From IMG/VR virus record IMGVR_UViG_3300020438_000006, positions 1 through 29,616 of that record: DNA of 29,616 nt. One strand, written 5' to 3'. The translations under genes and the position numbers were made by a program. Every line of letters begins with the position of its first letter. The stretch's first letter is position 1. The notes beneath the pieces are model-generated. The model was not told the origin of the DNA, searched no databases, and worked only from the letters and a program-made list of their open reading frames with translations. Source of the DNA: a virus. This document shows, piece by piece, positions 1-29,616 of this stretch.

Positions 1-77
1 AAAGCGTGAACATCCCAATTAACCAACGGTTATTTTATAAACGGATTATTAGCAAAACTCTTAACAGTAGGGAATGA
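1..77. repeat. Left copy of the 77-bp terminal direct repeat
   Basis: Bases 1-77 are identical to bases 29540-29616. The repeat has no inverted ends or coding boundary of its own. It lies inside the candidate RNA region, which only makes sense once the two ends are joined. The simplest reading is the overlap left when an assembler linearises a circular or circularly permuted molecule; 77 is a commonly used k-mer length. The unique circle is then 29,539 bp. Confidence 0.95.
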
Positions 78-1528: not shown

Positions 1529-2122
1529 ATGAGTAAATTAATTCAAGTATTACAAGATTTAGGAAAAACTGTTGTTGATAAATCCAGAAGAAATTTAGTC
1601 ACGGCAAAACCTTATAGCAAAAAAACAAGCCGTAATACTTTATATGATGGTATTCAATATAACGTAAAAGGAGGTCAAAAGGGAGTTGAATTAGAATGGA
1701 GTTTTGGAGGCGCTGAGGATTATTGGCAATTCGTAGATCAGGGAGTTAGAGGATCGGGAAAGTCAGTTGGAGGAACTGCAAAATCAGGTAAACAGGCTAA
1801 ACGTGGAGGAACGGGAACATTACGAGCAATTAAAAGTCCTTTTAAATTTAAAGACAAAATGCCTCCCAGAAGATTTATTGACAAATGGATTGTTAGCAAA
1901 CCATTAAAACAGGCTCGGAATTCTAAAGGACAATTTATAACTCGTAAATCTATGGCTTATTTAATACAAAGATCAATTTTTAGAAAGGGACTTTATAGAA
2001 CATTATTTTTTACAAAACCTTATGAACAAGAAGTAAAGGCATTTATGCCTAAAATTATAGACGCTTATGCTGATGAGTTGTTAGAATCATTAGATAAATC
2101 ATTAAATACAGAATTATTATGA
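1529..2122 (+). CDS. HK97 gp10-like neck/tail completion protein
   Basis: The protein has 197 residues from the ATG at 1529. An upstream in-frame ATG at 1499 lies inside the previous gene and is less likely. The N-terminus has a helix (VLQDLGKTVVDKSRRNL), then a basic segment, an LYDGIQYNV strand, and YWQFVDQGVRG, which resembles the W-x-FVD-x-G core of HK97 gp10-like proteins. These connect the portal/adaptor ring to the tail. A Gly/Lys-rich linker near residues 75-100 is probably flexible. The C-terminal third is helical. It overlaps the following gene by four bases (ATGA), which suggests coupled translation. Confidence 0.6.
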   Translation: MSKLIQVLQDLGKTVVDKSRRNLVTAKPYSKKTSRNTLYDGIQYNVKGGQKGVELEWSFGGAEDYWQFVDQGVRGSGKSVGGTAKSGKQAKRGGTGTLRAIKSPFKFKDKMPPRRFIDKWIVSKPLKQARNSKGQFITRKSMAYLIQRSIFRKGLYRTLFFTKPYEQEVKAFMPKIIDAYADELLESLDKSLNTELL

Positions 2123-3591
2123 GCATATTATTTGAACAAAAACCTGTAAACAGTGGCGATAAAGTCCCTGTAATAACTAATTGGAATCCTGTTATTGGAT
2201 ATATGGTAATTCAGAATTCAAGCATTGCAGGATTTTTTTATTATAAACTGATTTTAGAAATAAAAATAAATGATAATAACGGAACTTTATTAGGTAAAAT
2301 TAAACAACGTAGAAACGGTTATTCTGTTGATATAAATAACAATAATGCAAGAGCATTTTTTGATTTAAAAAAGATTGTAAACAGTCAATTAACTAATACC
2401 ATATTTGATCAGAATATAGCCGGACAACCATTTCAAACAATTCATAAACTTTGTGCTAATACCGGTGTTGGCTCTACAACCTCTGATTATTATTCTGTTA
2501 GTGGAGACAAAAGAACAGACAAAACACAAATAACTAAAATTTTTGTAAAAGCTTATCAAGAATACTCAGTTAACGCAAATCAAGTACCAACAGAAAATAC
2601 AGGAAGCACCGCAACAAATACACGGTTTTACCTTAAGGCGTCTTTACCTTTATTGACTCAACGAGATACAGATCCATTATTTATACAAGGAACGGCGTTT
2701 CAAAAATATCAAGCAAGTTCATCTTCTGATCTATTTTTAAGCGATTTAATTAAACAAAATTCTAAATATAATTCAGCTAAAGTTTATAGGACAAAAATTA
2801 GAGATGACGATTTTCATACTGTTGCGTTTTTAAATGATAACGGTAATTTTGATAGTGAAATTGATAAAATTAATATAATATATTATTCGAATTTAGGAGT
2901 AGCATTATCATCTACAACCATAACAAATTCAACAACTTATGGTGGTTATGATCCGGTTTCTGTTAACGATGATTTGGATAATGATCCATATAGATTGTTA
3001 TATTTCGGATGCGGAACGGCTAACCTTGAAGCCGGTTCAAACGTTGTTGCACGTCCGTCTAATGCCTCTAATAATGGTTGGGTTAGATACACAATACAAG
3101 GTTTTGAATCTGGAGGATCTGCAAGAACAGATGTTTACGAATTTGAAAGAGATAATTGCAGAATAAAAGGATTCAAAACAAGGAGATTAGCTTGGGTTAA
3201 TACTGTTGGAGGTTATGATTATTTTAATTTTACTTGTAAATCAACTGAGAAATTAAATGTTAAAAGAGATACTTATTCAACTTTAATGGGTTATTACAGT
3301 TCAAGTAAATTTTTCTATAACAACACACAAAGAGGAAAGACCGTTAGAAGCACAGAAGCAACGCTTACAGAGACTTTAAGGACTGATTGGATAAGTGAGG
3401 AAGATGCAGTATTATTACAAAGCCTAATGAAGTCTAACGAAGTTCAGGTTGTTCAAAATACTGATACAGAATTCACGCAGGGAGTGAATGTTGTTGATAC
3501 TAATTTTACAGTTAAGACACAGGCAAACGATAAATTAATTCAATATACAATTCAAATAGAATACGCTAATAACATAAATACTAATTCATAA
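2119..3591 (+). CDS. Tail/baseplate structural protein
   Basis: This 490-residue protein is rich in Asn, Ser, Thr and Tyr and dominated by predicted beta strands, as expected for a phage tail or baseplate component. The most distinctive stretch is near residues 355-375, RRLAWVNTVGGYDYFNF, a pattern I recall from tail proteins of Bacteroidota phages. There is no enzyme motif, signal peptide or coiled coil. It lies between the neck protein and the very large tail protein, overlapping neighbours by four and one bases. By position it could be the distal tail or upper baseplate protein. I cannot name a closer homologue. Confidence 0.55.
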   Translation: MSILFEQKPVNSGDKVPVITNWNPVIGYMVIQNSSIAGFFYYKLILEIKINDNNGTLLGKIKQRRNGYSVDINNNNARAFFDLKKIVNSQLTNTIFDQNIAGQPFQTIHKLCANTGVGSTTSDYYSVSGDKRTDKTQITKIFVKAYQEYSVNANQVPTENTGSTATNTRFYLKASLPLLTQRDTDPLFIQGTAFQKYQASSSSDLFLSDLIKQNSKYNSAKVYRTKIRDDDFHTVAFLNDNGNFDSEIDKINIIYYSNLGVALSSTTITNSTTYGGYDPVSVNDDLDNDPYRLLYFGCGTANLEAGSNVVARPSNASNNGWVRYTIQGFESGGSARTDVYEFERDNCRIKGFKTRRLAWVNTVGGYDYFNFTCKSTEKLNVKRDTYSTLMGYYSSSKFFYNNTQRGKTVRSTEATLTETLRTDWISEEDAVLLQSLMKSNEVQVVQNTDTEFTQGVNVVDTNFTVKTQANDKLIQYTIQIEYANNINTNS

Positions 3592-6500
3592 TGGAAGTTA
3601 GATTAGTCGCATATAGGAAAGCAACAAGTTCTTCAACTCAGGATAGCACGTATAATTTAGACTTGCAAGAATCTCCCAATATAAGTTTAAATTTCCAATT
3701 TGCTGACATTAAAGAACCTGAGAAAAGGAAAGGGAGTTTTAGCCAAACATTTAAATTACCATTCACAGATAATAATAACGAGTTTTTCCAAAATTGGTAT
3801 AATGTTAATTTAGAAACATTAGTATTTAGTACACGTACTAAATTTGATGCCGTTTTATTTGTAGGTACAACACCACAGTTTGAGGGAACAATACAATTAA
3901 AATCTATATATAAAAAAGCTGAATTATATGAAGTTATTTTATTATCTAATACGGCTACTTTATTTAGTGTTATTGGAGACAACCGTTTGAAAGATGTTTT
4001 TTTAGAAGATGATGGAAGTTATTCGGGAGATTTTAACCACGTTTACGACAATACGACTTTAAGCAATAGTTGGAATAATACGCTTCAAAACACTTCCGGA
4101 ACAACATTAACTAATAACGGAATCACTCAAATTGTATATCCTTTTTCCGTGACTCAGCCGGGTTTTTATTATCCAACTAATGATCGTTATTTAAGAATGA
4201 GTCAATCCGATATAACTACTTTAGGATATTCAAGTGCTTCAAATTATACAGTTAATTTATCTCAATTTAGACCTGCAATTCAAATAAGAACATTGTTTGA
4301 AAGAATTATTGCAAGATCTGGTTTTAGTTATACGTCTTCTTTTTTAGATAGTGATTATTTTAGTAAAATCTATATGACAACGGCAAATCATATTGAAGCT
4401 GCTGCATTACCTACTACAAATGCAAATACTGCTCCAAGTGGTCTTATGTATGTTGGTAATACAGATAATTGGGGGGAAATCTTGATTCCGGGAACAACTT
4501 ATATTTGTCCGGATGAAATTATGCCTTGTCCAGTTAATCTCCCAATAACCACTCTTGGCGTCCCTTATGATTCAGATCAAATTTGGAATACAACAAACCA
4601 TTTCTTTACTAAAGAGGCTTTTGATATGGCGAGTATAGAAATTTATAACTATGTTTTTTGGAATAATGTTAGAAATATATCTCCATACACTTCAGGTCTT
4701 TGGATAGGTTTGCAAAAATGGGACAACGATCCCACTTCTCCAACTTATAATTCATTAGTAGATGAATTTTACGGTTCAACTAATGTTGAAATTGGTAATT
4801 TATGGTCAGATGGTACGGGAAATGCAGGTTCGTATGGAATGACTAATACAGTATCTTTAGAAAATATGCCTGTTGGCGCTTCTGCGTGTGTTGTGTTTCG
4901 TTTATATTATGTTGAACGTGTTAGCTCGGCTTTTAATGGAGTTGTAAGATTGGGACAAATAGGAACACAAACTTTTACTGCATCTGCAATAATAAATTGG
5001 ATGGGTTATTCAACTAACGTTTACGGTGCAACTGTTGATATTCCATCTTGCATTGATCCTGATTTAAAACAAAAGGATTTTTTAAAAGATATAATTGAAA
5101 GATTTAATTTAGTGGTTGTAACCGATCCAGATAACGATTCTAACTTAATTATAGAACCTTACAACGATTATCTCGCATTAGGTAGTATAAAGCGTTGGAC
5201 AGATAAATTGGACACGTCTAAAGAGATAATAATAAAAGACACCACGGAATTACAAAAAAAGATAGTTCATTTATCAGACCAAGAGGACGTTGATTTAAAT
5301 AACGCAGTATTAAAAGAACGTTATCCAGATGTTAACGTTTTTGGTCATATAAGAATTCAAGATGATACTAACGAATTTGCAAAAGGAGAATTAAAAAACA
5401 ATTCAATTTTCAGTCCTTTTATTAACGATCAAATTTATAAATCAGCTAGTCAATCCGGCGCATCTTTATTAGCTAATTTTACTGTTCAATATGAATTTGG
5501 TTATGAATCTAATGAAAATGATGGTAATAATGTAGTTAAAAAAACCAAACCTAAATTATTCTATTACTCAGGAACTCCCGTTTCAGTAAAAGACGCAGCA
5601 GATAATACAACAACATATTATTTACACAATCATAATTCAACTGCAGAAATAATAACGGCTTATTCTTATAATGAATATCCTGTTTGCAGTCCTTTTGACG
5701 TACCGGGAACAACAGATACTTATTCGTTAAATGCTGACACTGTTAGCCTTTATTGGAATTCAACACCTCCTTTAAACGGAACTAATTTAATTTTTAACAA
5801 TGGAGATACACAGGGAAATTGGTTTAATGGTTCTTTATATGGTAAGTATTGGAAATCTTATTTAAATGAAATTTATAGCGATAATGCACGAATAATGGAG
5901 GCGTTCGTAAATTTAGATGCATACGACATATTTGATTTTAAATTTAACGATGAAATTTTTATAAAAGATACTTATTGGAGGATTTTAAAAATACAAAATT
6001 ATCAAGTTAATGGTAATGCTTCTACTAAAATAACATTTATTAAATCTTTAGACACTAAAGAAAATTGTACTGATTGCGATTATGTTTTAGGTTATGTGGG
6101 TGGTATTTCTGGAGGATTAAATTTTATTGGTGACGCAACAACGGGTTATGGTGCTTATGTTTGGTGTCCTGATGATGATCCAACTTGCTCACCAACATTA
6201 ACAGGAACTCAAATAAGCTTATACACTCAACCGGCTTGTTGCGATTGTAACGGAGGTTTTATATTATGGAATCAAACAACATATGCAGACCAAAATTTAT
6301 ATCCTTGTATGACTTATGCGGGAAGTCCTCCGGCTAAAATAACTAACAAACAAGGTGTTTTATCAATATGGAAAACACAGAATTTGAAAGGATTATTAAC
6401 GGGAATTTTAGGAGTAAAAGAAAAACCGTTTGTTATTGGAAGCGATAATACAAAATACAGTAGAGAAATTTTGCCTTATATGAAAGACGATCAAGTTATT

Positions 6501-7049
6501 AAATATAACGTCAAAAACAGGTTAATGCCTTATTTAGAGGGAGAAAGTCATAAAGTTATATTAATGGGAAATACTGTTGGATCAAATAAAAATTATGCTT
6601 ATCCAAGAGGCGAAAAGGGGGAAGAATCATTAAAAATTCCTCCTAATGTAAATATAATTATAAGAGTAAAAGGATTAGCAACGGTAATAGGTGGCAAAAA
6701 TGCATCTTATCCATTAGGAAGCACTGAGGGAATCGGATATTATACTGCGTTTAAAGTAGATGGAGCAACACCAACTCAATTAGGTACTATTGGAGGAACT
6801 GTTGATTTCAGTTTAAAAGAAGCAGGATTATTAAGCGTATGTTCATTATATATTGATATTAATCAGGGAGTTTTACGATTTGGAATTCAAGATTCACAAA
6901 ATGACACAAACCGAGTTTGGGAGTTATCTGCTGAAATAGACATAAACAGAATTTATAATATAGGAATTGCACACGATGAAAATTGGGCGTTATTCCAAAA
7001 TGGACAAAGAATACAATTTGAAAACGGAGATTATTTAATATGGAATTAA
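3591..7049 (+). CDS. Very large tail-tip/baseplate hub protein with LamG-like C-terminus
   Basis: This is the longest gene, 1152 residues. The N-terminal 140 residues contain ADIKEPEKRKGSFSQTFKLP, a start I recall for baseplate proteins of Bacteroidota siphoviruses. The middle is mostly beta, with a helical stretch ending in the QDDTNEFAKGELKNN region near residue 600. Around residues 840-930 lies a Cys-rich segment (CTDCD, CPDDDPTC, ACCDC) that could bind metal or form disulfides. The last 110 residues look like a concanavalin/LamG-type jelly roll, often used for glycan contact. I infer a tail-tip hub that may carry the receptor-binding part. It overlaps the next small gene by 10 bases. Confidence 0.55.
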   Translation: MEVRLVAYRKATSSSTQDSTYNLDLQESPNISLNFQFADIKEPEKRKGSFSQTFKLPFTDNNNEFFQNWYNVNLETLVFSTRTKFDAVLFVGTTPQFEGTIQLKSIYKKAELYEVILLSNTATLFSVIGDNRLKDVFLEDDGSYSGDFNHVYDNTTLSNSWNNTLQNTSGTTLTNNGITQIVYPFSVTQPGFYYPTNDRYLRMSQSDITTLGYSSASNYTVNLSQFRPAIQIRTLFERIIARSGFSYTSSFLDSDYFSKIYMTTANHIEAAALPTTNANTAPSGLMYVGNTDNWGEILIPGTTYICPDEIMPCPVNLPITTLGVPYDSDQIWNTTNHFFTKEAFDMASIEIYNYVFWNNVRNISPYTSGLWIGLQKWDNDPTSPTYNSLVDEFYGSTNVEIGNLWSDGTGNAGSYGMTNTVSLENMPVGASACVVFRLYYVERVSSAFNGVVRLGQIGTQTFTASAIINWMGYSTNVYGATVDIPSCIDPDLKQKDFLKDIIERFNLVVVTDPDNDSNLIIEPYNDYLALGSIKRWTDKLDTSKEIIIKDTTELQKKIVHLSDQEDVDLNNAVLKERYPDVNVFGHIRIQDDTNEFAKGELKNNSIFSPFINDQIYKSASQSGASLLANFTVQYEFGYESNENDGNNVVKKTKPKLFYYSGTPVSVKDAADNTTTYYLHNHNSTAEIITAYSYNEYPVCSPFDVPGTTDTYSLNADTVSLYWNSTPPLNGTNLIFNNGDTQGNWFNGSLYGKYWKSYLNEIYSDNARIMEAFVNLDAYDIFDFKFNDEIFIKDTYWRILKIQNYQVNGNASTKITFIKSLDTKENCTDCDYVLGYVGGISGGLNFIGDATTGYGAYVWCPDDDPTCSPTLTGTQISLYTQPACCDCNGGFILWNQTTYADQNLYPCMTYAGSPPAKITNKQGVLSIWKTQNLKGLLTGILGVKEKPFVIGSDNTKYSREILPYMKDDQVIKYNVKNRLMPYLEGESHKVILMGNTVGSNKNYAYPRGEKGEESLKIPPNVNIIIRVKGLATVIGGKNASYPLGSTEGIGYYTAFKVDGATPTQLGTIGGTVDFSLKEAGLLSVCSLYIDINQGVLRFGIQDSQNDTNRVWELSAEIDINRIYNIGIAHDENWALFQNGQRIQFENGDYLIWN

Positions 7050-7213
7050 AAAATTATATAGAAGATTCAGCGAAGTTTATTACAAAATCAATAGATCATT
7101 TGCAATTAGTAGATTATAAAGATAAAAACCTTGATTTTGAATATGGATTAGAAGAATATCACACAAGTTTTAGGAGATTGTTTAAACAAATAATAAGAAT
7201 AATTTTAAGATAA
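7040..7213 (+). CDS. Small tail-module protein, function unknown
   Basis: This 57-residue protein begins inside the end of the hub gene and shares its final A (TAATG) with the tape measure start. It has an acidic helical middle and a very basic, hydrophobic C-terminus (FRRLFKQIIRIILR) that could be an amphipathic helix. No family was recognised. Placement between hub and tape measure, with overlaps on both sides, suggests a translated gene of the tail operon. Confidence 0.55.
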   Translation: MELKNYIEDSAKFITKSIDHLQLVDYKDKNLDFEYGLEEYHTSFRRLFKQIIRIILR

Positions 7214-8970
7214 TGACAGTAACAAAAAAAATTATATTAGACGTTGAGACTAAAGGTGCTCAAAAAAACGTAAAAAAATTAGATAAAGGCATAAAAGATA
7301 CTGCAAAATCATCTAAAGGCGCTGAAAAGGGTTTAAAAGGAATGACGGGAGGAACTAAAGCGTTAGGATTAGGATTTAAAGCGTTGGGAATAGGATTAAT
7401 TATTAGCGCATTTATGAAGCTAAAAGATTTATTTAGTGGTAATATAGAAACGGCAAGGAAATTTGAAGTTATGGGTGCCAAAATATCTGCAATGTTTGAT
7501 GTATTGAGGGACAGAATTGAACCTTTATTTATGTCATTAAGTAAATTATTTACAGATCCTTTAGGAAGTTTAGAAACCTTTGCAAACGCTATTAAAGAGA
7601 ATTTAATAAATAGAGTAAAAGCCTTAGTTGACACATTTGGTGCATTAGGAAAAGTAGTGAAAGGAGTTTTTACAAGAGATATGGATTTATTAAAAGAGGG
7701 TGTAAATCAAGCTAAAGATTCTTTTGTTCAATTATCAACAGGATTAGACGATGTTCAACAATCTAAAGTGGCTGAAACTTTTAAATCTATTACAAAAGAG
7801 ATAAAAGAAGAAACAAAAGCCGTTGGAGATTTAACAGAAGCTTTACAAAATGTACGAGACAGGGAGAGAGATATGCTAACAGTTAGGGCAGATGCAAATA
7901 AATTAATTGCTCAAAGTAGATTATTAGCAGAAGATGAATCTAAGTCAATGGAAGAAAGATTAGTTGCCTTAAAAGCTGCGGTTGCAGAAGAACAAAGAGT
8001 AGCGTCAATTGAGATGTCTATACAAGAAGATAAAGTTAATGCATTACAAGAGATAATTGACTTAGGTAAATCAAGTGAGGAAGATATGCAAAACCTTGCT
8101 GCTGAAAAAGCTAGATTAACAGAATTAGAAACGGCTTCAATATTAAAACAAAAACGAGTTGTAACAGAAATTGTTACGTTTGAAAAACAAATAGATACTG
8201 AAAAAAAGAAAATAGCAAAAGCCGAATTAGATCGTCAAAATTTATTGCTTCAAACAAGAGAATTAAATTTAGAAATTACAGAAGAATTAACAGACAAAGA
8301 ACTTGAAGCGTTAATAAAAGCTGAGGAAAAAAGGCTTGGAGTAATAGACGCTAATTCAAAGAAAGAAAAAGAGTTAAAAGAAAAGCAGATTGAGGACGTT
8401 AAAAAGATGGAATTAGAATCTGCAATGAATATAATGGGGAGTTTAGCTCAATTAGGACAACAAAAATTATCTGATGAAAAAAAGGCTTTACAAAAACAAT
8501 TAGATGCGGGTTTAATATCACAAAAAGAATTTGACAAAGAATCTGCTAAAATTGAAAAAGAATCAGTTAAAAGAGAAAAAAAGAATGCAATGTTAAATAT
8601 ATTAATTAGCACGGCACAAGGTATTGCGGGTGCAATTAAAGCCGGTGCGGGACTTACATTTCCGGCAAATTTAGGTGCAATTGCTTCCGGAGTTGCAGCA
8701 GTTTTAGCCGGTATAGTTAATGCAAAAGCCGTATTAAGCAAAGTTCCCGGAGATGGAGGAAGCGCAGACATTGACGCAGGTACAACGGGAGGAGATGATT
8801 CAGTTGAAGAACCTGAGGTTGGAGGAATTCAAGGAATTGCAAGTACCTTATTACCAAATATAAATAATACAAATACCGATCAACAACCAATACAAGCTTA
8901 TGTAATTGAAAATGATATTTCAGATGCACAAGCTTTGCAAGAAGAATTAGAAATACAAGCCACGTTATAA
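7213..8970 (+). CDS. Tape measure protein
   Basis: This 585-residue protein has the typical layout: a basic N-terminus, a Gly/Leu-rich hydrophobic segment near residues 50-72 (GLGFKALGIGLIISAF), a long charged coiled coil from about 190 to 460, and a second hydrophobic Ala/Gly segment at about 460-510. The tape measure sets tail length and enters the host envelope during DNA injection. At about 0.15 nm per residue the tail would be near 85-90 nm; this is an estimate. No lytic transglycosylase or peptidase domain is visible. It is well separated from the chaperone gene, whereas the two are usually adjacent. Confidence 0.85.
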   Translation: MTVTKKIILDVETKGAQKNVKKLDKGIKDTAKSSKGAEKGLKGMTGGTKALGLGFKALGIGLIISAFMKLKDLFSGNIETARKFEVMGAKISAMFDVLRDRIEPLFMSLSKLFTDPLGSLETFANAIKENLINRVKALVDTFGALGKVVKGVFTRDMDLLKEGVNQAKDSFVQLSTGLDDVQQSKVAETFKSITKEIKEETKAVGDLTEALQNVRDRERDMLTVRADANKLIAQSRLLAEDESKSMEERLVALKAAVAEEQRVASIEMSIQEDKVNALQEIIDLGKSSEEDMQNLAAEKARLTELETASILKQKRVVTEIVTFEKQIDTEKKKIAKAELDRQNLLLQTRELNLEITEELTDKELEALIKAEEKRLGVIDANSKKEKELKEKQIEDVKKMELESAMNIMGSLAQLGQQKLSDEKKALQKQLDAGLISQKEFDKESAKIEKESVKREKKNAMLNILISTAQGIAGAIKAGAGLTFPANLGAIASGVAAVLAGIVNAKAVLSKVPGDGGSADIDAGTTGGDDSVEEPEVGGIQGIASTLLPNINNTNTDQQPIQAYVIENDISDAQALQEELEIQATL

Positions 8971-21534: not shown

Positions 21535-21948
21535 ATGAAAAATAGAAACTTAGAACACAAAGACGATTGGAAAACACCTCAAGATTTTTATAACAAATTA
21601 AATAAAGAATTTGATTTTGATTTTGATCCGTGTCCATATATGCACGATATGTCTTGGAATGGTTTAGAAGTAGAATGGAAGCAGAGAAACTTTATAAACC
21701 CTCCTTATAGTAGAAAATTAAAAGAAGCATTTATAATAAAAGCTATAGAAGAAAGTAAAAAAGGAAAATTATGCGTAATGTTATTGCCGGTATCTACAAG
21801 CACAAAGATATTTCACGATCATATTTTACCAAATAAAAAAGAAATACGATTTATTAGACGAAGATTAAAATTTAGTGGATATAATTCTAATGGGGAATTT
21901 GTAGACAATAAATGTGGTATGCACGATTCAATGATAATAATATTTTAA
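21535..21948 (+). CDS. Phage DNA N6-adenine methyltransferase (Dam family)
   Basis: This 137-residue protein has the order WKTPQDFYNKLNKEF (12-26), FDFDPCP (28-34) and catalytic NPPYS (55-59), then KLCVMLLPVSTSTKIFHDHI, the signature of the small phage Dam-like family (PF05869 type). It should transfer methyl from S-adenosylmethionine to adenine N6, protecting DNA from restriction. Length is at the low end for the family, but all visible motifs are present. GATC sites are common in the window, so the target cannot be deduced from site avoidance. It begins after the tandem 10-bp repeats and is one base from the nuclease gene. Confidence 0.75.
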   Translation: MKNRNLEHKDDWKTPQDFYNKLNKEFDFDFDPCPYMHDMSWNGLEVEWKQRNFINPPYSRKLKEAFIIKAIEESKKGKLCVMLLPVSTSTKIFHDHILPNKKEIRFIRRRLKFSGYNSNGEFVDNKCGMHDSMIIIF

Positions 21949-23749: not shown

Positions 23750-24035
23750 AGTTTATATGGACTTTTTTAATTATGGAGAACAGGATTTTATTCCTTGTGA
23801 AATGTGTGGAGGTCAAGCCGTTGACATTCATCATCTAACTAAACAATCTAAATTCGGTAAAAAAAAGGAGAAAGATTTTATTGAAAATCTAATTGCAGTT
23901 TGCCGGGATTGTCACAACAACGCTGAGCACGATAATATCTTTAATATGTTTTGCAGAATAAAACATTTAGAAAACACTTGCATTCAAATTTATGCATTAA
24001 TAAACCTTAAAAAAAAATTGAATTATGAAGACTAA
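23733..24035 (+). CDS. HNH endonuclease-like protein
   Basis: The protein has 100 residues from the ATG at 23733. An earlier in-frame ATG at 23706 is deeper inside the previous gene. It has CEMC (22-25), DIHHL (31-35), NLIAVCRDCHNNAEH (52-66): a zinc-holding Cys set (22, 25, 57, 60) and the His and Asn residues of an HNH site. Phage HNH proteins near terminase genes often help DNA packaging, while others act in DNA mobility. Here the modification cassette lies between HNH and terminase. It overlaps the ParB-like gene by 11 bases. Confidence 0.7.
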   Translation: MKTHTKVYMDFFNYGEQDFIPCEMCGGQAVDIHHLTKQSKFGKKKEKDFIENLIAVCRDCHNNAEHDNIFNMFCRIKHLENTCIQIYALINLKKKLNYED

Positions 24036-24621
24036 AAAAGTAAATATAAAAGACCTTATTTTAAATCCTGAGAATCCAAGAGTTATTAAGGATTATAAAT
24101 TTAAAAAACTTATTAAAAGCATAAAGACATTCCCGGAAATGTTGAAACTGAGACCAATTGTTGTCAATGAAAAAATGGAAGTATTAGGAGGTAATATGCG
24201 AACTCGTGCTTGTATTGAAGCCGGTTTAAAAGAAGTTTATATTCAAGTGGCTAATTTAACTAAGGAACAAGAAAAAGAATTTATTATAAAAGATAATTCA
24301 AGCTTCGGAGAATGGGATTGGGATTTACTTGCAAATGAATGGGAGATTCAAGATTTAAAAGATTGGGGACTTGATATTCCTAAATGGGAAGATAAACTTG
24401 AGTTTGATAATGATATAGAAGACACGGGAGATTATGATTATCCGGAAGATGATTTAGAAAACTCGCACGTAAAAATGGTTCAATTATTTTTAACCACTGA
24501 AACAGAGCCTAAATTCAAACAATGGGAATTAGAATTGAGATCAGATTTTGACACTGATAATTTAACTGACACTATTTATAAATTAGTGGAGTATTATTAT
24601 AACGAAAAAAGAAATGATTAA
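24025..24621 (+). CDS. ParB-like protein, first gene of the DNA modification cassette
   Basis: This 198-residue protein has an N-terminal ParB/Srx domain: LNPENPR (13-19), RPIVVNEKMEVLGGNMRTRA (43-62), with the GGNxRxRA box for nucleotide or phosphate binding. The C-terminal half is acidic and includes NSSFGEWDWDLLANEW, a segment common in phage ParB-like proteins. No partition HTH domain is present. In phages such proteins recur beside DNA-modifying enzymes and may help select or cut DNA. It overlaps the dioxygenase gene by eight bases, so the two are probably co-translated. Plasmid partition is unlikely, as there is no ParA. Confidence 0.7.
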   Translation: MKTKKVNIKDLILNPENPRVIKDYKFKKLIKSIKTFPEMLKLRPIVVNEKMEVLGGNMRTRACIEAGLKEVYIQVANLTKEQEKEFIIKDNSSFGEWDWDLLANEWEIQDLKDWGLDIPKWEDKLEFDNDIEDTGDYDYPEDDLENSHVKMVQLFLTTETEPKFKQWELELRSDFDTDNLTDTIYKLVEYYYNEKRND

Positions 24622-25516
24622 AAAGCATATTTTAAAACCACGTTTAACGGATGAAGAAGCGCTTAGGCTAAAAGGTAATTTATTAGAGGAAAAAGATTAC
24701 AACACTTTAATAACGCATAACGCTGACGTATATTGTGAAGAAACAGGGAAATGCATAGCTAAATTTAGAAAGAAAATAATACCGGGAAACATAGCAGAAA
24801 AAGCTTATGAAAGTTTAAAAAGTGTTAGCGTAAACACTAGGAATAGAACCATTAGCGCAGGTAATTCAGATGAGCACGGTAATTTTAGTCGTAAAATGAT
24901 TAAAAAGGACGGAACAGTTAGTAATACTAATTTAGCGTTTGAACAAAATGAGGTTAGATCAGGCATAATAGGATATTTTGACAGGACACCAAGAACACCA
25001 TATTGCAGACAAACGGCATTTAATGAAAAACAGTTTTCTAAATATAAGGAAGCTTATCCAATCATTAAATTTGTTGATACTGCTTACGCTGAATTAATGC
25101 CGGATCACTATAAATTACAAAGAGATGAAGCAGATAAAACTTCTCAAGATTATGTAATTAAAAATACTGCATTTACAACTGTCACGGTAAACAAAAATTG
25201 GCAAACGGCATTACATACTGACAAAGGAGATTTTGAAAAAGGATTTGGTAATTTAGTAGTTCTTAGACAAGGGCGTTATTCTGGAGGTTATTTTGTTGTT
25301 CCTAAATGGGGTGTTGCTTTTGACGTACAGAATTGCGATCTGTTATTGGTTGATGTCCATCAGTGGCACGGCAACACTCCAATTAAAAAAATAGACGAAC
25401 ACGCAACAAGAGTTAGTTTAGTTATGTATTACCGTAAAAATATGATTAATTGCGGAACGACTGAGGAAGAAAAAGAAATTGTTAAAAATCGTATGGAGGG
25501 AGATAAACTAAATTAA
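24614..25516 (+). CDS. TET/JBP-like 2-oxoglutarate, Fe(II) DNA-base dioxygenase
   Basis: This 300-residue protein has the iron ligands His201-x-Asp203 (LHTDKGD) and His252 (WHGNTP), followed by a 2-oxoglutarate-binding Arg in TRVSLVMYYR (266 or 274). The strand-rich region between (GFGNLVVLRQGRYSGGYFVV) fits the double-stranded beta helix. The arrangement matches the TET/JBP family of phages, which oxidise the methyl of thymine or 5-methylcytosine in DNA. No C5-cytosine methylase is seen, so thymine is the likelier substrate, giving 5-hydroxymethyluracil. That is inference. It lies two bases before the amidotransferase gene. Confidence 0.8.
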   Translation: MIKKHILKPRLTDEEALRLKGNLLEEKDYNTLITHNADVYCEETGKCIAKFRKKIIPGNIAEKAYESLKSVSVNTRNRTISAGNSDEHGNFSRKMIKKDGTVSNTNLAFEQNEVRSGIIGYFDRTPRTPYCRQTAFNEKQFSKYKEAYPIIKFVDTAYAELMPDHYKLQRDEADKTSQDYVIKNTAFTTVTVNKNWQTALHTDKGDFEKGFGNLVVLRQGRYSGGYFVVPKWGVAFDVQNCDLLLVDVHQWHGNTPIKKIDEHATRVSLVMYYRKNMINCGTTEEEKEIVKNRMEGDKLN

Positions 25517-25518
25517 TT

Positions 25519-26133
25519 ATGTGCGGTGTTGTTGGTTTTAGTTGTAATAATCCTGTTGAAGATAATTATTTAATTCTTCACAAATTAATAATGCAAAGTA
25601 AAATAAGGGGTTTGCATAGTTTTGGTTATTCTTATTATGATACTGAGATTATAACTAAAAAATATCATAATATAAATGACATTAAATTACCTAAAGCAAA
25701 TAAAATTATATTTCATAATCGTTATTCAACAAGTGGAGATTATAAGAAACACATAAACAATCAACCGATTCATTTAAATAAAATGTCTTTAGTTTTTAAT
25801 GGAGTTTTAGATATGCGTAAAAAAGAACATATTGAAGAACAGTATAATATAAAAATGGAAACTGAAAACGATGGAGAAATAATTATAAAAGTTTGCGGAA
25901 ACGATCCAGATAAAATAAAAGATTTTGTAAGTAATACGCAATACGGCTCATTTGCAGGACTTATATTAAACGGCAATAACAAACTACTAGCAATTAGAAA
26001 TAAGTTTAGACCACTTTGGAAATTGCGTTATAACAACGCTTTATATTACGCTTCAACTCAGGATATATTTAAAAGAGTGAATAAAGACTTTGAGCCAACA
26101 GAATTAAAACCTAATATAATATATGAAAATTAG
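25519..26133 (+). CDS. Stand-alone class II glutamine amidotransferase
   Basis: The 204-residue protein begins MCGVVGF, so Cys2 becomes the N-terminal nucleophile after Met removal. RGLHSFG (30-36), NRYSTSG (67-73) and NGVLD (94-98) are the remaining class II (PurF/AsnB/GlmS-type) glutaminase motifs, in order. It should release ammonia from glutamine or transfer its amide nitrogen. No synthetase, phosphoribosyl or isomerase domain is attached, so the acceptor must come from a partner. The gene lies between the dioxygenase and acetyltransferase genes, overlapping the latter by 11 bases, and so probably supplies nitrogen to the modified base. Confidence 0.8.
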   Translation: MCGVVGFSCNNPVEDNYLILHKLIMQSKIRGLHSFGYSYYDTEIITKKYHNINDIKLPKANKIIFHNRYSTSGDYKKHINNQPIHLNKMSLVFNGVLDMRKKEHIEEQYNIKMETENDGEIIIKVCGNDPDKIKDFVSNTQYGSFAGLILNGNNKLLAIRNKFRPLWKLRYNNALYYASTQDIFKRVNKDFEPTELKPNIIYEN

Positions 26134-26527
26134 AAACGCAACAGAAAATGATGCTGAATTAATTAAGATATTACATAAGCAACATAAAAAAGAAATTGGA
26201 GGATTTAATTTATTTTGGATCTGGGATAAATATCTTGAGGGAGGCACAACATATAATTACGTTGTAATAGAAGATATTGCATTTATGCGTTATGGATATT
26301 CTAAAAAATATAAAGCTAATGTATTGTATGAAATTGGGGTTGATGTAAATAGCACTCAGAGAGGCGCAGGAAGATTATTGTTTAATCATTTACCTAAACC
26401 AACAATGTTAAAATGTAATCAGGATAACGACATTGGTAATGCCTTTTATTTAGCAATGGGAATGACTAAAGCCGGTACAACTCAAACTAAAGCCGGAGTA
26501 AAACAGAACATTTGGTGGAATTCATAG
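26123..26527 (+). CDS. GNAT-family N-acetyltransferase
   Basis: This 134-residue protein follows the GNAT layout: MKIRNATENDAELIKIL at the N-terminus, an IGVDVNSTQRGAGRLLFNHL segment (71-90) with the QRGAGR acetyl-CoA loop (79-84), and an NAFYLAMGM helix (106-114). It should acylate an amine using acetyl-CoA or a related thioester. In this cassette the amine could be the one added to the base through the amidotransferase. GNAT proteins also occur in phages in other roles. It overlaps its neighbours by 11 and 16 bases. Confidence 0.75.
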   Translation: MKIRNATENDAELIKILHKQHKKEIGGFNLFWIWDKYLEGGTTYNYVVIEDIAFMRYGYSKKYKANVLYEIGVDVNSTQRGAGRLLFNHLPKPTMLKCNQDNDIGNAFYLAMGMTKAGTTQTKAGVKQNIWWNS

Positions 26528-27390
26528 AATATCATATAAATTCATCTAAGGCTAAGGACATAGATCCAAGCAATGATTGTTTGAAATATGTTGCAGACCG
26601 ATTTGAATTAAATATAGAACAACGGTATTGGTTAGCGTTTTTATTTGGAACGTGTTATTCTGCAACGATGGTTTATTATGTTTATAATGAATTTCCTGAT
26701 TATGAAAATGTAGACGTTGAAAGGTTGCAACAGTGGTGGAATAACAACAAACAAAATACTTTATTTCAAACTGACAGACTAAGAATAAAATCTCAAAATA
26801 AATTCGTAGAAACTTTTACAAGTTATAAAAGCCTTTTAGGAAATAGATCACAAGAGGATTATTTTAAGTCTTTAAAACAACCTACTAAGCAAACCACGTA
26901 TGATAATTGTTATAATGACCTATCACAAATAAAAAACTTTGGACGGTTTACGATGTTTATTTATTTAGAAATGATACACGTTTTAACAGGATATGAATTT
27001 GAACCTACTTATTTAGATTTAAAAAACGCTGAAAGTTGTCGTAATGGTTTAGTTTATCATTTAGGACATTATGAATTAGACACTCACGGAAACGATAAGA
27101 AACTTACTAATAAACAAATAAACTATTTACAATATAAATTTAAAGAATTAAAAAAAGAGATTCAGCAATTAGATATTGAGCATAAAAATATATGGAACAT
27201 TGAAACCACTTTATGCGCATATAAAAAGTTTAAAAAAGGAAAACGGTATATTGGTTATTATATAGACCGACAAAAAAAAGAGATAGAGAAAATGCAAAGC
27301 AATATAACTCAGGGTGTTGATTGGTCTGTTTTATGGCAATTTAGAAACGAAACTTATAATAAAAAATGGCTAAAAGAATTATCGCAATAG
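26512..27390 (+). CDS. 5-hmdU DNA kinase-type helical domain protein
   Basis: This 292-residue helical protein has a TTG start (26512) or GTG (26515). EQRYWLAFLFGTCYS (36-50), FQTDRLRIKSQNKF near 85-98, NFGRFTMFIYLE (142-153) and SCRNGLVYHLGH (175-186) match, from memory, the helical domain of 5-hydroxymethyl-dU DNA kinases, earlier named aGPT-Pplase2. These enzymes act on hmU in DNA in phages with hypermodified thymine. A basic, coiled C-terminal region (200-275) follows. It overlaps the P-loop kinase by 25 bases, so the helical part and the kinase are probably made together and act as a pair. Confidence 0.6.
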   Translation: MVEFIEYHINSSKAKDIDPSNDCLKYVADRFELNIEQRYWLAFLFGTCYSATMVYYVYNEFPDYENVDVERLQQWWNNNKQNTLFQTDRLRIKSQNKFVETFTSYKSLLGNRSQEDYFKSLKQPTKQTTYDNCYNDLSQIKNFGRFTMFIYLEMIHVLTGYEFEPTYLDLKNAESCRNGLVYHLGHYELDTHGNDKKLTNKQINYLQYKFKELKKEIQQLDIEHKNIWNIETTLCAYKKFKKGKRYIGYYIDRQKKEIEKMQSNITQGVDWSVLWQFRNETYNKKWLKELSQ

Positions 27391-27878
27391 GAGGTGTTCC
27401 GGCAACGGGGAAATCAACCTTAATGAAAGAAATTATTAAAGAGTGTATGCCTTTAAAGACTTTTAAATATAAGCTTGTAAGAGGTCTTTATAATATAGAT
27501 AAAAAAATATATATAATTGGAATTTATGATAACTCTGTTTTTACCGGAACAGATAAGTTATCAATGGCTACACAACCAGACTTTATTGAATTTATAAATA
27601 AAATACCTGAGCATAAAATTATATTTGAGGGAGACCGTTTATTTAATCAAAGTCTATTTAATAAAGTAGATTGCGAAATAATTGTTTTAAAAGTAGATGA
27701 GGACATTATTGAACAAAGACATCATATTAGACAAGATACACAATCAAATCAATTTAAAAAGGCTAAGGAAACTAAGATAAAGAACATATTAGATAATAAT
27801 AATGTAGTTTTGTTAAATAACAATACTAATGAAGATAGTATTAAGGCAAAAGAATACATTTTAAACTTAATCAGATAA
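27366..27878 (+). CDS. P-loop kinase of the DNA modification cassette
   Basis: This 170-residue protein begins with a Walker A motif, GGVPATGKST (9-18). IIFEGDRLFNQSLF near residues 95-108 is a likely Walker B region. A lid segment rich in Arg/Lys (EQRHHIRQDTQSNQFKKAKE) follows at about 118-137. This is the layout of nucleotide and polynucleotide kinases of the T4-dNMP kinase and DNA-kinase type. I infer that it phosphorylates the hydroxymethyl group of 5-hmU in DNA, since it overlaps the helical partner gene and closes the cassette. A free nucleotide substrate is possible. It overlaps the small terminase gene by one base. Confidence 0.65.
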   Translation: MAKRIIAIGGVPATGKSTLMKEIIKECMPLKTFKYKLVRGLYNIDKKIYIIGIYDNSVFTGTDKLSMATQPDFIEFINKIPEHKIIFEGDRLFNQSLFNKVDCEIIVLKVDEDIIEQRHHIRQDTQSNQFKKAKETKIKNILDNNNVVLLNNNTNEDSIKAKEYILNLIR

Positions 27879-29539: not shown

Positions 29540-29616
29540 AAAGCGTGAACATCCCAATTAACCAACGGTTATTTTATAAACGGATTATTAGCAAAACTCT
29601 TAACAGTAGGGAATGA
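29430..29616 (+). ncRNA. Candidate structured RNA, 5' part
   Basis: The region between the terminase stop (29375) and the first tail gene (243, across the junction) is about 400 bp with no ordinary gene. TATATTTT at 29417-29424 or TAGCTTTA at 29435-29442 could be a -7 box. TGTTGCG (29511-29517) is fully complementary to CGCAACA (110-116) on the other side of the junction, which would give a long-range helix enclosing about 130 nt. TCGG (29450-29453) can pair with CCGA (29480-29483). No known RNA family was recognised. Short reading frames also cross the region, so an RNA is only one explanation. Confidence 0.4.
29540..29616. repeat. Right copy of the 77-bp terminal direct repeat
   Basis: This is the exact copy of bases 1-77. 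Sequence on its left (terminase side) and to the right of the first copy (chaperone side) joins into one continuous intergenic region. A genuine physical terminal repeat cannot be excluded from sequence alone, but it would be short for a phage. Confidence 0.95.

Follow-up and report, generated by a model that had tools for sequence, protein, structure and literature searches.

Thymidines are hypermodified in Salmonella phage ViI and in Pseudomonas phages M6 and PaMx11 by a 5-hmdU kinase and an amino acid:DNA transferase. In ViI a thyA-family gene lies beside the kinase gene and TET is missing, and 5hmdU is therefore made as a nucleotide. Oxidation of thymine within DNA by enzymes of the TET/JBP superfamily is the entry step to base J in kinetoplastids, where JBP1/2 act together with a glucosyltransferase (PMC6449724). 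TET genes followed by a TET-associated glycosyltransferase (TAGT) gene are found in Nonlabens P12024L and in contig L062. ParB, TET/JBP, aGPT-Pplase2 and kinase genes of the Rhodococcus phage Tonitrus (2025; PP978825) have been annotated as a thymidine hypermodification system, known by annotation alone; the passages concerned with it report no chemistry (PMC11955845).

A cassette combining several of these features is found in the IMG/VR record IMGVR_UViG_3300020438_000006, analysed over a window corresponding to the whole stretch of 29,616 nucleotides. As in Tonitrus, genes for a ParB-like protein, a TET/JBP enzyme, an ADDT (aGPT-Pplase2 in Tonitrus) and a phrog_800 kinase share a single operon, which lies on the terminase side. 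The Tonitrus ADDT belongs to another clade, however, and glutamine amidotransferase (GAT), GNAT and flavin lyase genes were not detected in the first 7 kb of that phage. The ParB-TET-ADDT-kinase skeleton is thus already known from Tonitrus, and what distinguishes the present cassette is the pairing of GAT with a TET-type starter enzyme. The cassette shares the kinase PHROG and a transferase family with ViI, in which GAT was not detected, and TET would replace the nucleotide-level step. The TETs of TAGT systems are closely related (46-59% identity over the alignment), and in L062 are also preceded by ParB, but TAGT stands after TET in place of the kinase/ADDT module. Similarly, 5hmU is glucosylated in base J, whereas it would be processed by kinase and ADDT in the cassette. 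GAT has the class II Ntn glutaminase domain of PurF and GlmS, with the full set of catalytic motifs, and NH3 is proposed to displace a (pyro)phosphate here as well; unlike those enzymes it is a stand-alone domain, and the acceptor would be a DNA transferase located on a separate chain.

Gene content of the cassette

The operon spans 24025-27878 and includes six co-directional ORFs (Table 1), all lying where the preliminary description had placed them. Its statement that all but one pair of neighbours overlap is exact, as the junctions measure, in order, -8, +2, -11, -16 and -25 bp, and the TET/GAT pair is the only one separated, by a 2-bp gap. The 3.9 kb cassette is part of a continuous block. 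An HNH gene adjoins it upstream (junction -11), and TerS and TerL follow downstream (junctions -1 and -20). An exact 77-bp repeat is found at both termini, and the genome, of about 29.5 kb, is therefore probably complete. The host of the cassette is a small marine phage. No relevant defence-system match was obtained with PADLOC.

Table 1. Genes of the cassette, with coordinates in the window and principal family matches
Product	Position	Strand	Length and matches
ParB_N-domain protein	24025..24621	+	198 aa; Pfam ParB_N 7.5e-6; phrog_620 ParB-like 1.5e-25
TET/JBP 2-oxoglutarate/Fe(II) dioxygenase	24614..25516	+	300 aa; Pfam Tet_JBP 1.6e-29
Class II (Ntn) glutamine amidotransferase (GAT), stand-alone domain	25519..26133	+	204 aa; GATase_6 1.2e-5; NCBIfam PurF 6e-12
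GNAT N-acyltransferase	26123..26527	+	134 aa; phrog_1249 acetyltransferase 6e-4
Amino acid:DNA transferase (ADDT/aGPT-PPlase superfamily)	26512..27390	+	292 aa, TTG start; Pfam ADDT 8.9e-21
P-loop kinase	27366..27878	+	170 aa; phrog_800 7e-11

HMM searches agree with the families initially proposed for five of the six proteins. The TET/JBP and ADDT assignments lie far beyond chance, those of ParB_N and GAT are solid, and the GNAT and kinase matches are weaker. The dioxygenase has the double-stranded beta-helix domain, the HxD...H motif and the 2OG-binding Arg of the TET/JBP group; the residues involved (H201, D203, H252 and R266) are invariant across 19 diverse homologues, and human TET2 structures align with the protein (E 6e-8).

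The remaining protein (26512-27390), previously labelled as a helical component of an hmU-DNA-kinase, is an ADDT, and a role as part of a kinase is ruled out by three lines of evidence. The Pfam ADDT score is 75.1 bits against a curated cut-off of 26.2; similarity to ViI orf247 is detected by BLASTP (29% identity, 1e-21); and the AF2 model (pLDDT 89.4) has a single confident PDB fold match, the PaMx11 gp46 5-PmdU glycinyltransferase (8z2n/8z2m; TM 0.60, probability 1.00, with a modest Foldseek E of 5e-3). The protein also matches aGPT-Pplase3 (1.9e-6) and phrog_3271 (5.5e-34), the PHROG to which ViI gp247 belongs. Taken alone, the clade including this ADDT (clade A) gave no sequence match to the solved transferases. 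The TTG start is backed by the N-termini of relatives.

Walker A, GIY...GTD and EGDR motifs are conserved in the kinase. Its PHROG holds also the ViI 5-hmdU kinase Vi01_061c (1.7e-67), which was the best match (2e-4) when the kinase family HMM was searched against the ViI genome. No protein of the window matches Pfam HMUDK_HMUD1 (PF18748) over cut-off, against a score of 386 bits for the kinase of ViI. A shared PHROG, a P-loop and the GxY...GTD motifs, together with the missed cut-off, point to a distant sister family of the 5-hmdU kinases, outside PF18748.

GAT has the hallmarks of class II amidotransferases, namely an N-terminal Cys nucleophile (Cys2), glutaminase motifs (HNRYSTSGD, NNQP, FNG, NDGE) that like Cys2 are largely invariant, and the Ntn fold. 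The AF2 model (pLDDT 91.8) corresponds by Foldseek to PurF/GlmS glutaminases (E 3e-10), and more weakly to the amidase EgtC. Since GATase folds include amidases of this type, ammonia delivery is not the sole possible role of GAT. No described role was found for such a glutamine-splitting partner in DNA modification. The GNAT family profile matches GNA1 structures (1.2e-3).

Cassette variants in other phages

The cassette is widespread: dozens of further phage contigs carry it, their reading frames preserved, and divergence among relatives is concentrated at third codon positions. Fifty-one distinct loci have been surveyed, which derive from related phages and do not represent independent events. 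The kinase is found in 50 of them. The combination that identifies thymidine hypermodification (a 5hmdU source, a kinase and a transferase encoded together) is present in the window, and is conserved in the same proportion of distinct cassettes (50/51).

GAT accompanies clade A ADDTs in all of the 44 distinct cassettes, again from related phages and not independent events, and GAT-ADDT cassettes span phages with different terminases. GNAT is missing from 8 of the 44; within the family GNAT is dispensable, GAT is not. A flavin-lyase homologue matching PDB 8z2o (4.6e-6) was found at five loci, only with clade B ADDTs, and GAT and lyase never occur together in the 51 loci. Two contigs from bacterial MAGs (L153 and L154) have kept the GAT-ADDT pair with no TET detected, and GAT is therefore tied to ADDT, not to TET. 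A thymidylate synthase gene considered as a neighbour of L153, a Prevotella locus, is actually on another contig. An apparent ADDT-kinase fusion (L144) turned out to be an artefact, the two genes being in different frames.

Proposed pathway and alternative readings

Hypermodification by TET, kinase and ADDT is very likely, judging from sequence and structural models. That the operon next to the terminase genes would direct a post-replicative thymidine-hypermodification pathway in its five steps is a fairly probable extension. The TET/JBP enzyme is proposed to hydroxylate the 5-methyl group of thymine in DNA, yielding 5-hydroxymethyl-dU. The P-loop kinase, a proposed 5-hydroxymethyl-dU DNA kinase by family, would convert this to 5-phosphomethyl-dU, and ADDT, by family and fold, would swap the phosphate for an amine, a nitrogen nucleophile being the displacing group. 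The glutaminase, obligate partner of clade A ADDTs, is the best candidate for a source of ammonia from glutamine. According to a PurF-like logic, GAT would provide ADDT with ammonia to yield 5-aminomethyl-dU, a suggestion made tentatively. In phages carrying GNAT, the installed amine is proposed to be acetylated. The order of reactions suggested at first (T to 5hmU, 5-phosphomethyl-U, amination and acylation) agrees with the present findings; what had to be corrected is the identity of the 292-aa protein, which is the ADDT and no kinase component, and the place of GNAT, dispensable where GAT is not. Novelty of the final base is not established, given that 5-aminomethyl-dU, the most parsimonious product, already figures among the natural bases of phages (PMC11550810). 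Modified bases would likely shield phage DNA from host nucleases.

Thymine is the likely substrate of TET. No C5-methyltransferase, the enzyme that cytosine (5mC-TET) hypermodification would call for in the phage, was found in the terminally redundant genome by PF00145, by a search of the ORFs for the PPC motif, or by phmmer with three C5-MTase-like queries, and 18 of 19 related IMG/VR records have no PF00145 match over cut-off. Thymidylate synthase or hydroxymethylase genes, also looked for, are not detected by PF00303 in the genome, nor in the 17 related records searched. Taken together, the two results favour oxidation of thymine in place. A cytosine route, in which 5mC from a host or separate methyltransferase would be oxidised by TET and the resulting 5-hydroxymethyl-C elaborated by kinase, ADDT, GAT and GNAT, is unlikely. 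To our knowledge, the phage TETs characterised so far do act on 5-methylcytosine. Moreover, Methylophilales phage Melnitz has an HhaI-type C5-methyltransferase beside TET and a homologue of the cassette kinase, and short C5-MTase-like ORFs are present in two related contigs. Yet the ADDT family and its fold match belong to thymine/5-PmdU systems, and host 5mC would give few modified sites. The active site does not help, as D206, three residues past the metal-binding Asp, is found also in the Melnitz TET beside the C5-MTase, and is hence non-discriminating.

For the role of GAT, two schemes compete. GAT and ADDT may be a two-protein, glutamine-dependent DNA amidotransferase, in which ammonia directly replaces the phosphate of 5-phosphomethyl-dU and GNAT N-acetylates the resulting 5-aminomethyl-dU; this would be a second route to aminomethyl bases, free of flavin lyase and begun by TET on DNA thymine, and we put it forward with some reserve. 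An equally conceivable scheme has ADDT transferring an entire amino acid (Gly, Ser, Gln or Glu, for example), GAT working as an Ntn amidase or transferase that tailors the attached residue, and GNAT capping the alpha-amine. The solved or characterised relatives of ADDT (8z2m/8z2n glycinyltransferase, ViI gp247 family) are indeed amino-acid transferases, EgtC is among the matches of the GAT model, and tailoring of the attached amino acid in known thymidine pathways is reportedly described by Lee et al. 2022. Against this, PurF and GlmS match GAT better than EgtC, glutaminase motifs are kept, and cassettes with clade B ADDTs do without GAT. It is highly improbable that GAT and GNAT sit in the operon by chance and serve a separate peptide or metabolite modification, as in LUZ24-like phages, where GAT lies beside amidoligases. 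The closest GATs of sequenced phage isolates adjoin amidoligase_2, ATP-grasp and AIG2-like genes, but neither amidoligase nor ATP-grasp was found among the window proteins scanned, and the constant sharing of cassettes by the GAT subfamily and ADDT, at all spanning loci and next to varied terminases, does not fit membership in an amidoligase cluster. Just as improbable is a decayed operon, with one enzyme inactive and the pathway halting at 5hmdU or 5-phosphomethyl-dU. Microbacterium phage Cinna has ParB, TET and kinase without ADDT; here, frames are intact, catalytic motifs invariant and divergence third-position-biased.

If the pathway holds, some phages hypermodify thymine without a special nucleotide pool, through in-place oxidation by TET/JBP. 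The cassette is small, modular and widespread across phage contigs from the environment, so that reconstitution can show what each enzyme contributes. The cassette is also a clean test case for the T versus 5mC specificity of phage TETs, and the candidate DNA amidotransferase could find use in placing primary amines on DNA.

ParB genes precede TET in most relatives, and are absent from one group of loci (L147-L152). The encoded protein would be accessory to the pathway, and may act in DNA binding or as a CTP/ATP switch.

Genes of the cassette and their genomic setting

The six ORFs of the hypermodification operon proposed in the preliminary description exist in the order claimed, and all but one gene pair do overlap (junctions of -8, +2, -11, -16 and -25 bp). 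The block continues directly into the TerS and TerL genes. In the rest of the window, genes for terminase, portal, a protease, an M15 peptidase and a tape-measure-like protein mark a tailed phage; the 490-aa and 1152-aa proteins found no match in Pfam or PHROG. Because an identical 77-bp sequence is found at both ends, the window is probably a complete circular (closed or permuted) phage genome of about 29.5 kb. A Dam-like N6-adenine methyltransferase (Pfam 3.7e-19) is also encoded, adenine methylation standing beside the proposed thymine modification.

Coordinates of the features in the window and in comparison loci
Record	Coordinates	Feature
Window	24025-27878 (+)	ParB_N, TET/JBP, GAT, GNAT, ADDT, P-loop kinase
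Window	24965-25438	TET/JBP search match (cassette dioxygenase)
Window	1-77 = 29540-29616	exact direct terminal repeat
Window	21535-21948	Dam-like methyltransferase
Window	2119-3591	490-aa protein
Window	3591-7049	1152-aa protein
L153, uncultured Prevotella MAG contig	~3504-7495	ParB-ParB-GAT-ADDT-kinase-GNAT, then radical SAM gene
L154, WOR-3 MAG contig	3583-6714	GAT, ADDT and nearby HMUDK-like kinase
L085, Microbacterium phage Cinna	1-2179	ParB-TET-kinase
L002, Pelagibacter phage HTVC112P	6973-9195	ParB-TET, then FkbM-type methyltransferase
L005, Caulobacter phage Cr30	7383-16276	TET, ADDT, close kinase homologue; inositol-phosphate synthase gene between
L079, Methylophilales phage Melnitz-3	2457-6537	consecutive HhaI-type C5-methyltransferase, TET, 427-aa protein, phrog_800 kinase
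L087, Salmonella phage ViI	38203-38865	5-hmdU DNA kinase Vi01_061c

A ParB_N domain (Pfam 7.5e-6), an acetyltransferase of the GNAT type (PHROGs 6e-4) and a Tet_JBP dioxygenase (Pfam 1.6e-29) have been identified in the cassette. The TET profile aligns with human TET2 (6e-8), and residues H201, D203, H252 and R266 are invariant across 19 sequences. The class II glutamine amidotransferase (GAT) matches Pfam GATase_6 (1.2e-5); its AF2 model (pLDDT 91.8) matches the glutaminase domains of PurF and GlmS (E 3e-10), which suggests a PurF-like glutaminase, and the amidase EgtC is a weaker match.

The protein formerly taken for a helical hmU-DNA-kinase component is a transferase, because it matches Pfam ADDT (amino acid:DNA transferase, 8.9e-21) and phrog_3271 (5.5e-34). 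It shares 29% identity with ViI orf247 over 266 columns (BLASTP), and the family HMM finds orf247 in the ViI genome (1.4e-28). The only confident PDB matches of its AF2 model (pLDDT 89.4) are the set 8z2n/8z2m (TM 0.60, prob 1.00, E 5e-3), whose entries name gp46 of a Pseudomonas PaMx phage, a 5-phosphomethyl-2'-deoxyuridine glycinyltransferase.

The cassette kinase matches P-loop families weakly in Pfam, falls below the cut-off of the Pfam HMUDK model, and fits phrog_800 (7e-11). The best ViI match of its family HMM is Vi01_061c (2e-4), which adjoins thyA and matches both HMUDK_HMUD1 (Pfam 2.6e-116) and phrog_800 (1.7e-67); phrog_800 also takes in the kinases of Rhodococcus phage Tonitrus (Ploopntkinase3 3.6e-50) and Cr30. 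Judged by sequence, the cassette kinase is a sister family of the HMUDK kinases. Both GenBank and PHROGs (phrog_800) label Vi01_061c 'terminase small subunit'; this is a misannotation that may well spread.

Known systems and the substrate base

The six genes are well explained as a real, conserved, TET-initiated thymidine-hypermodification cassette. Its skeleton is already known: a 2025 description of Tonitrus (PMC11955845) presents ParB, TET-like, aGPT-Pplase2 and 5-hmU kinase, counterparts of the cassette ParB, TET, ADDT and kinase, as a thymidine hypermodification system, and their order and domains were checked here. No description of a GAT in such a cassette was found in the literature searched, which leaves out the main primary papers and is not proof of absence. 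Thymine oxidation by JBP has been summarised together with the action of 5hmdU kinases in phages M6, ViI and phiW-14 (PMC6449724), and 5-aminomethyluracil is listed among natural phage bases (PMC11550810).

Thymine is the probable substrate base. Enzymes processing 5hmdU are present and a dUMP hydroxymethylase is absent, which fits TET as the 5hmdU source. Thymidylate synthase (PF00303) had no match in the window or in any of 17 related IMG/VR records. Nor was a C5-methyltransferase detected in the window by PF00145, PPC[PQTS]-motif ORFs or three C5-MTase-like queries; among 19 related records PF00145 gave one match above cut-off and one weaker, both in short ORFs of about 215 aa. Cytosine, the rival base, is favoured by the Melnitz phages, which combine an HhaI-type methyltransferase with TET and a kinase homologue. 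The Melnitz-3 row, whose 427-aa protein has no Pfam match, is a possible 5hmC-kinase system.

Cassette variants and the proposed role of the amidotransferase

Scanning viral contigs from TET, ADDT and GAT seeds yielded 51 distinct cassette-spanning loci; as the phages concerned are related, these do not count as independent events. GAT and ADDT of clade A, the type found in the window, occur together in 44 of the 51, with the kinase in 44/44 and GNAT in 36/44 of these. GNAT lies upstream of TET in some loci. In five loci a 262-aa protein takes the place of GAT, and the ADDT there is of clade B, the other subgroup. The 262-aa family matches a PDB 'Flavin-dependent lyase' (8z2o, 4.6e-6); for clade B, transferases of solved structure are matched, 25qc at 3.2e-14 and 8z2m at 7.1e-9. 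GAT and the flavin protein never share a locus (0/51). One locus features only clade B ADDT and kinase, and one a TET-associated glycosyltransferase instead.

Family knowledge and this analysis would have thymine converted to 5hmdU, then to 5-PmdU, and lastly to an N-adduct. Delivery of ammonia by GAT to the transferase is suggested, because GAT is tied strictly to one ADDT clade, is swapped for a flavin module and resembles a PurF-like glutaminase. In the main rival explanation, ADDT transfers a whole amino acid and GAT trims the attached residue. With ammonia delivery, the GAT module may reach in one step the same base as the PaMx flavin route. In that route a flavin enzyme reportedly leads to 5-NmdU, going solely by the title of Wen et al. 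2024 (cited in PMC11946847) and by PDB entry names.

Some related loci lack cassette members. The two bacterial MAG contigs retain GAT and ADDT, yet no TET was found for the Prevotella locus, either in the genome (PF12851) or within the surrounding ~60 kb (family HMM), nor for the WOR-3 locus. In the WOR-3 genome a thymidylate synthase match (G021:C168) is partial and interrupted by two in-frame stops. The Cinna genome has no PF18724 (ADDT) match, and its pathway might stop at the phosphomethyl base. In HTVC112P the hydroxymethyl base is possibly O-methylated. Cr30 genes are spread over about 9 kb, and its genome also hosts a thymidylate synthase gene.
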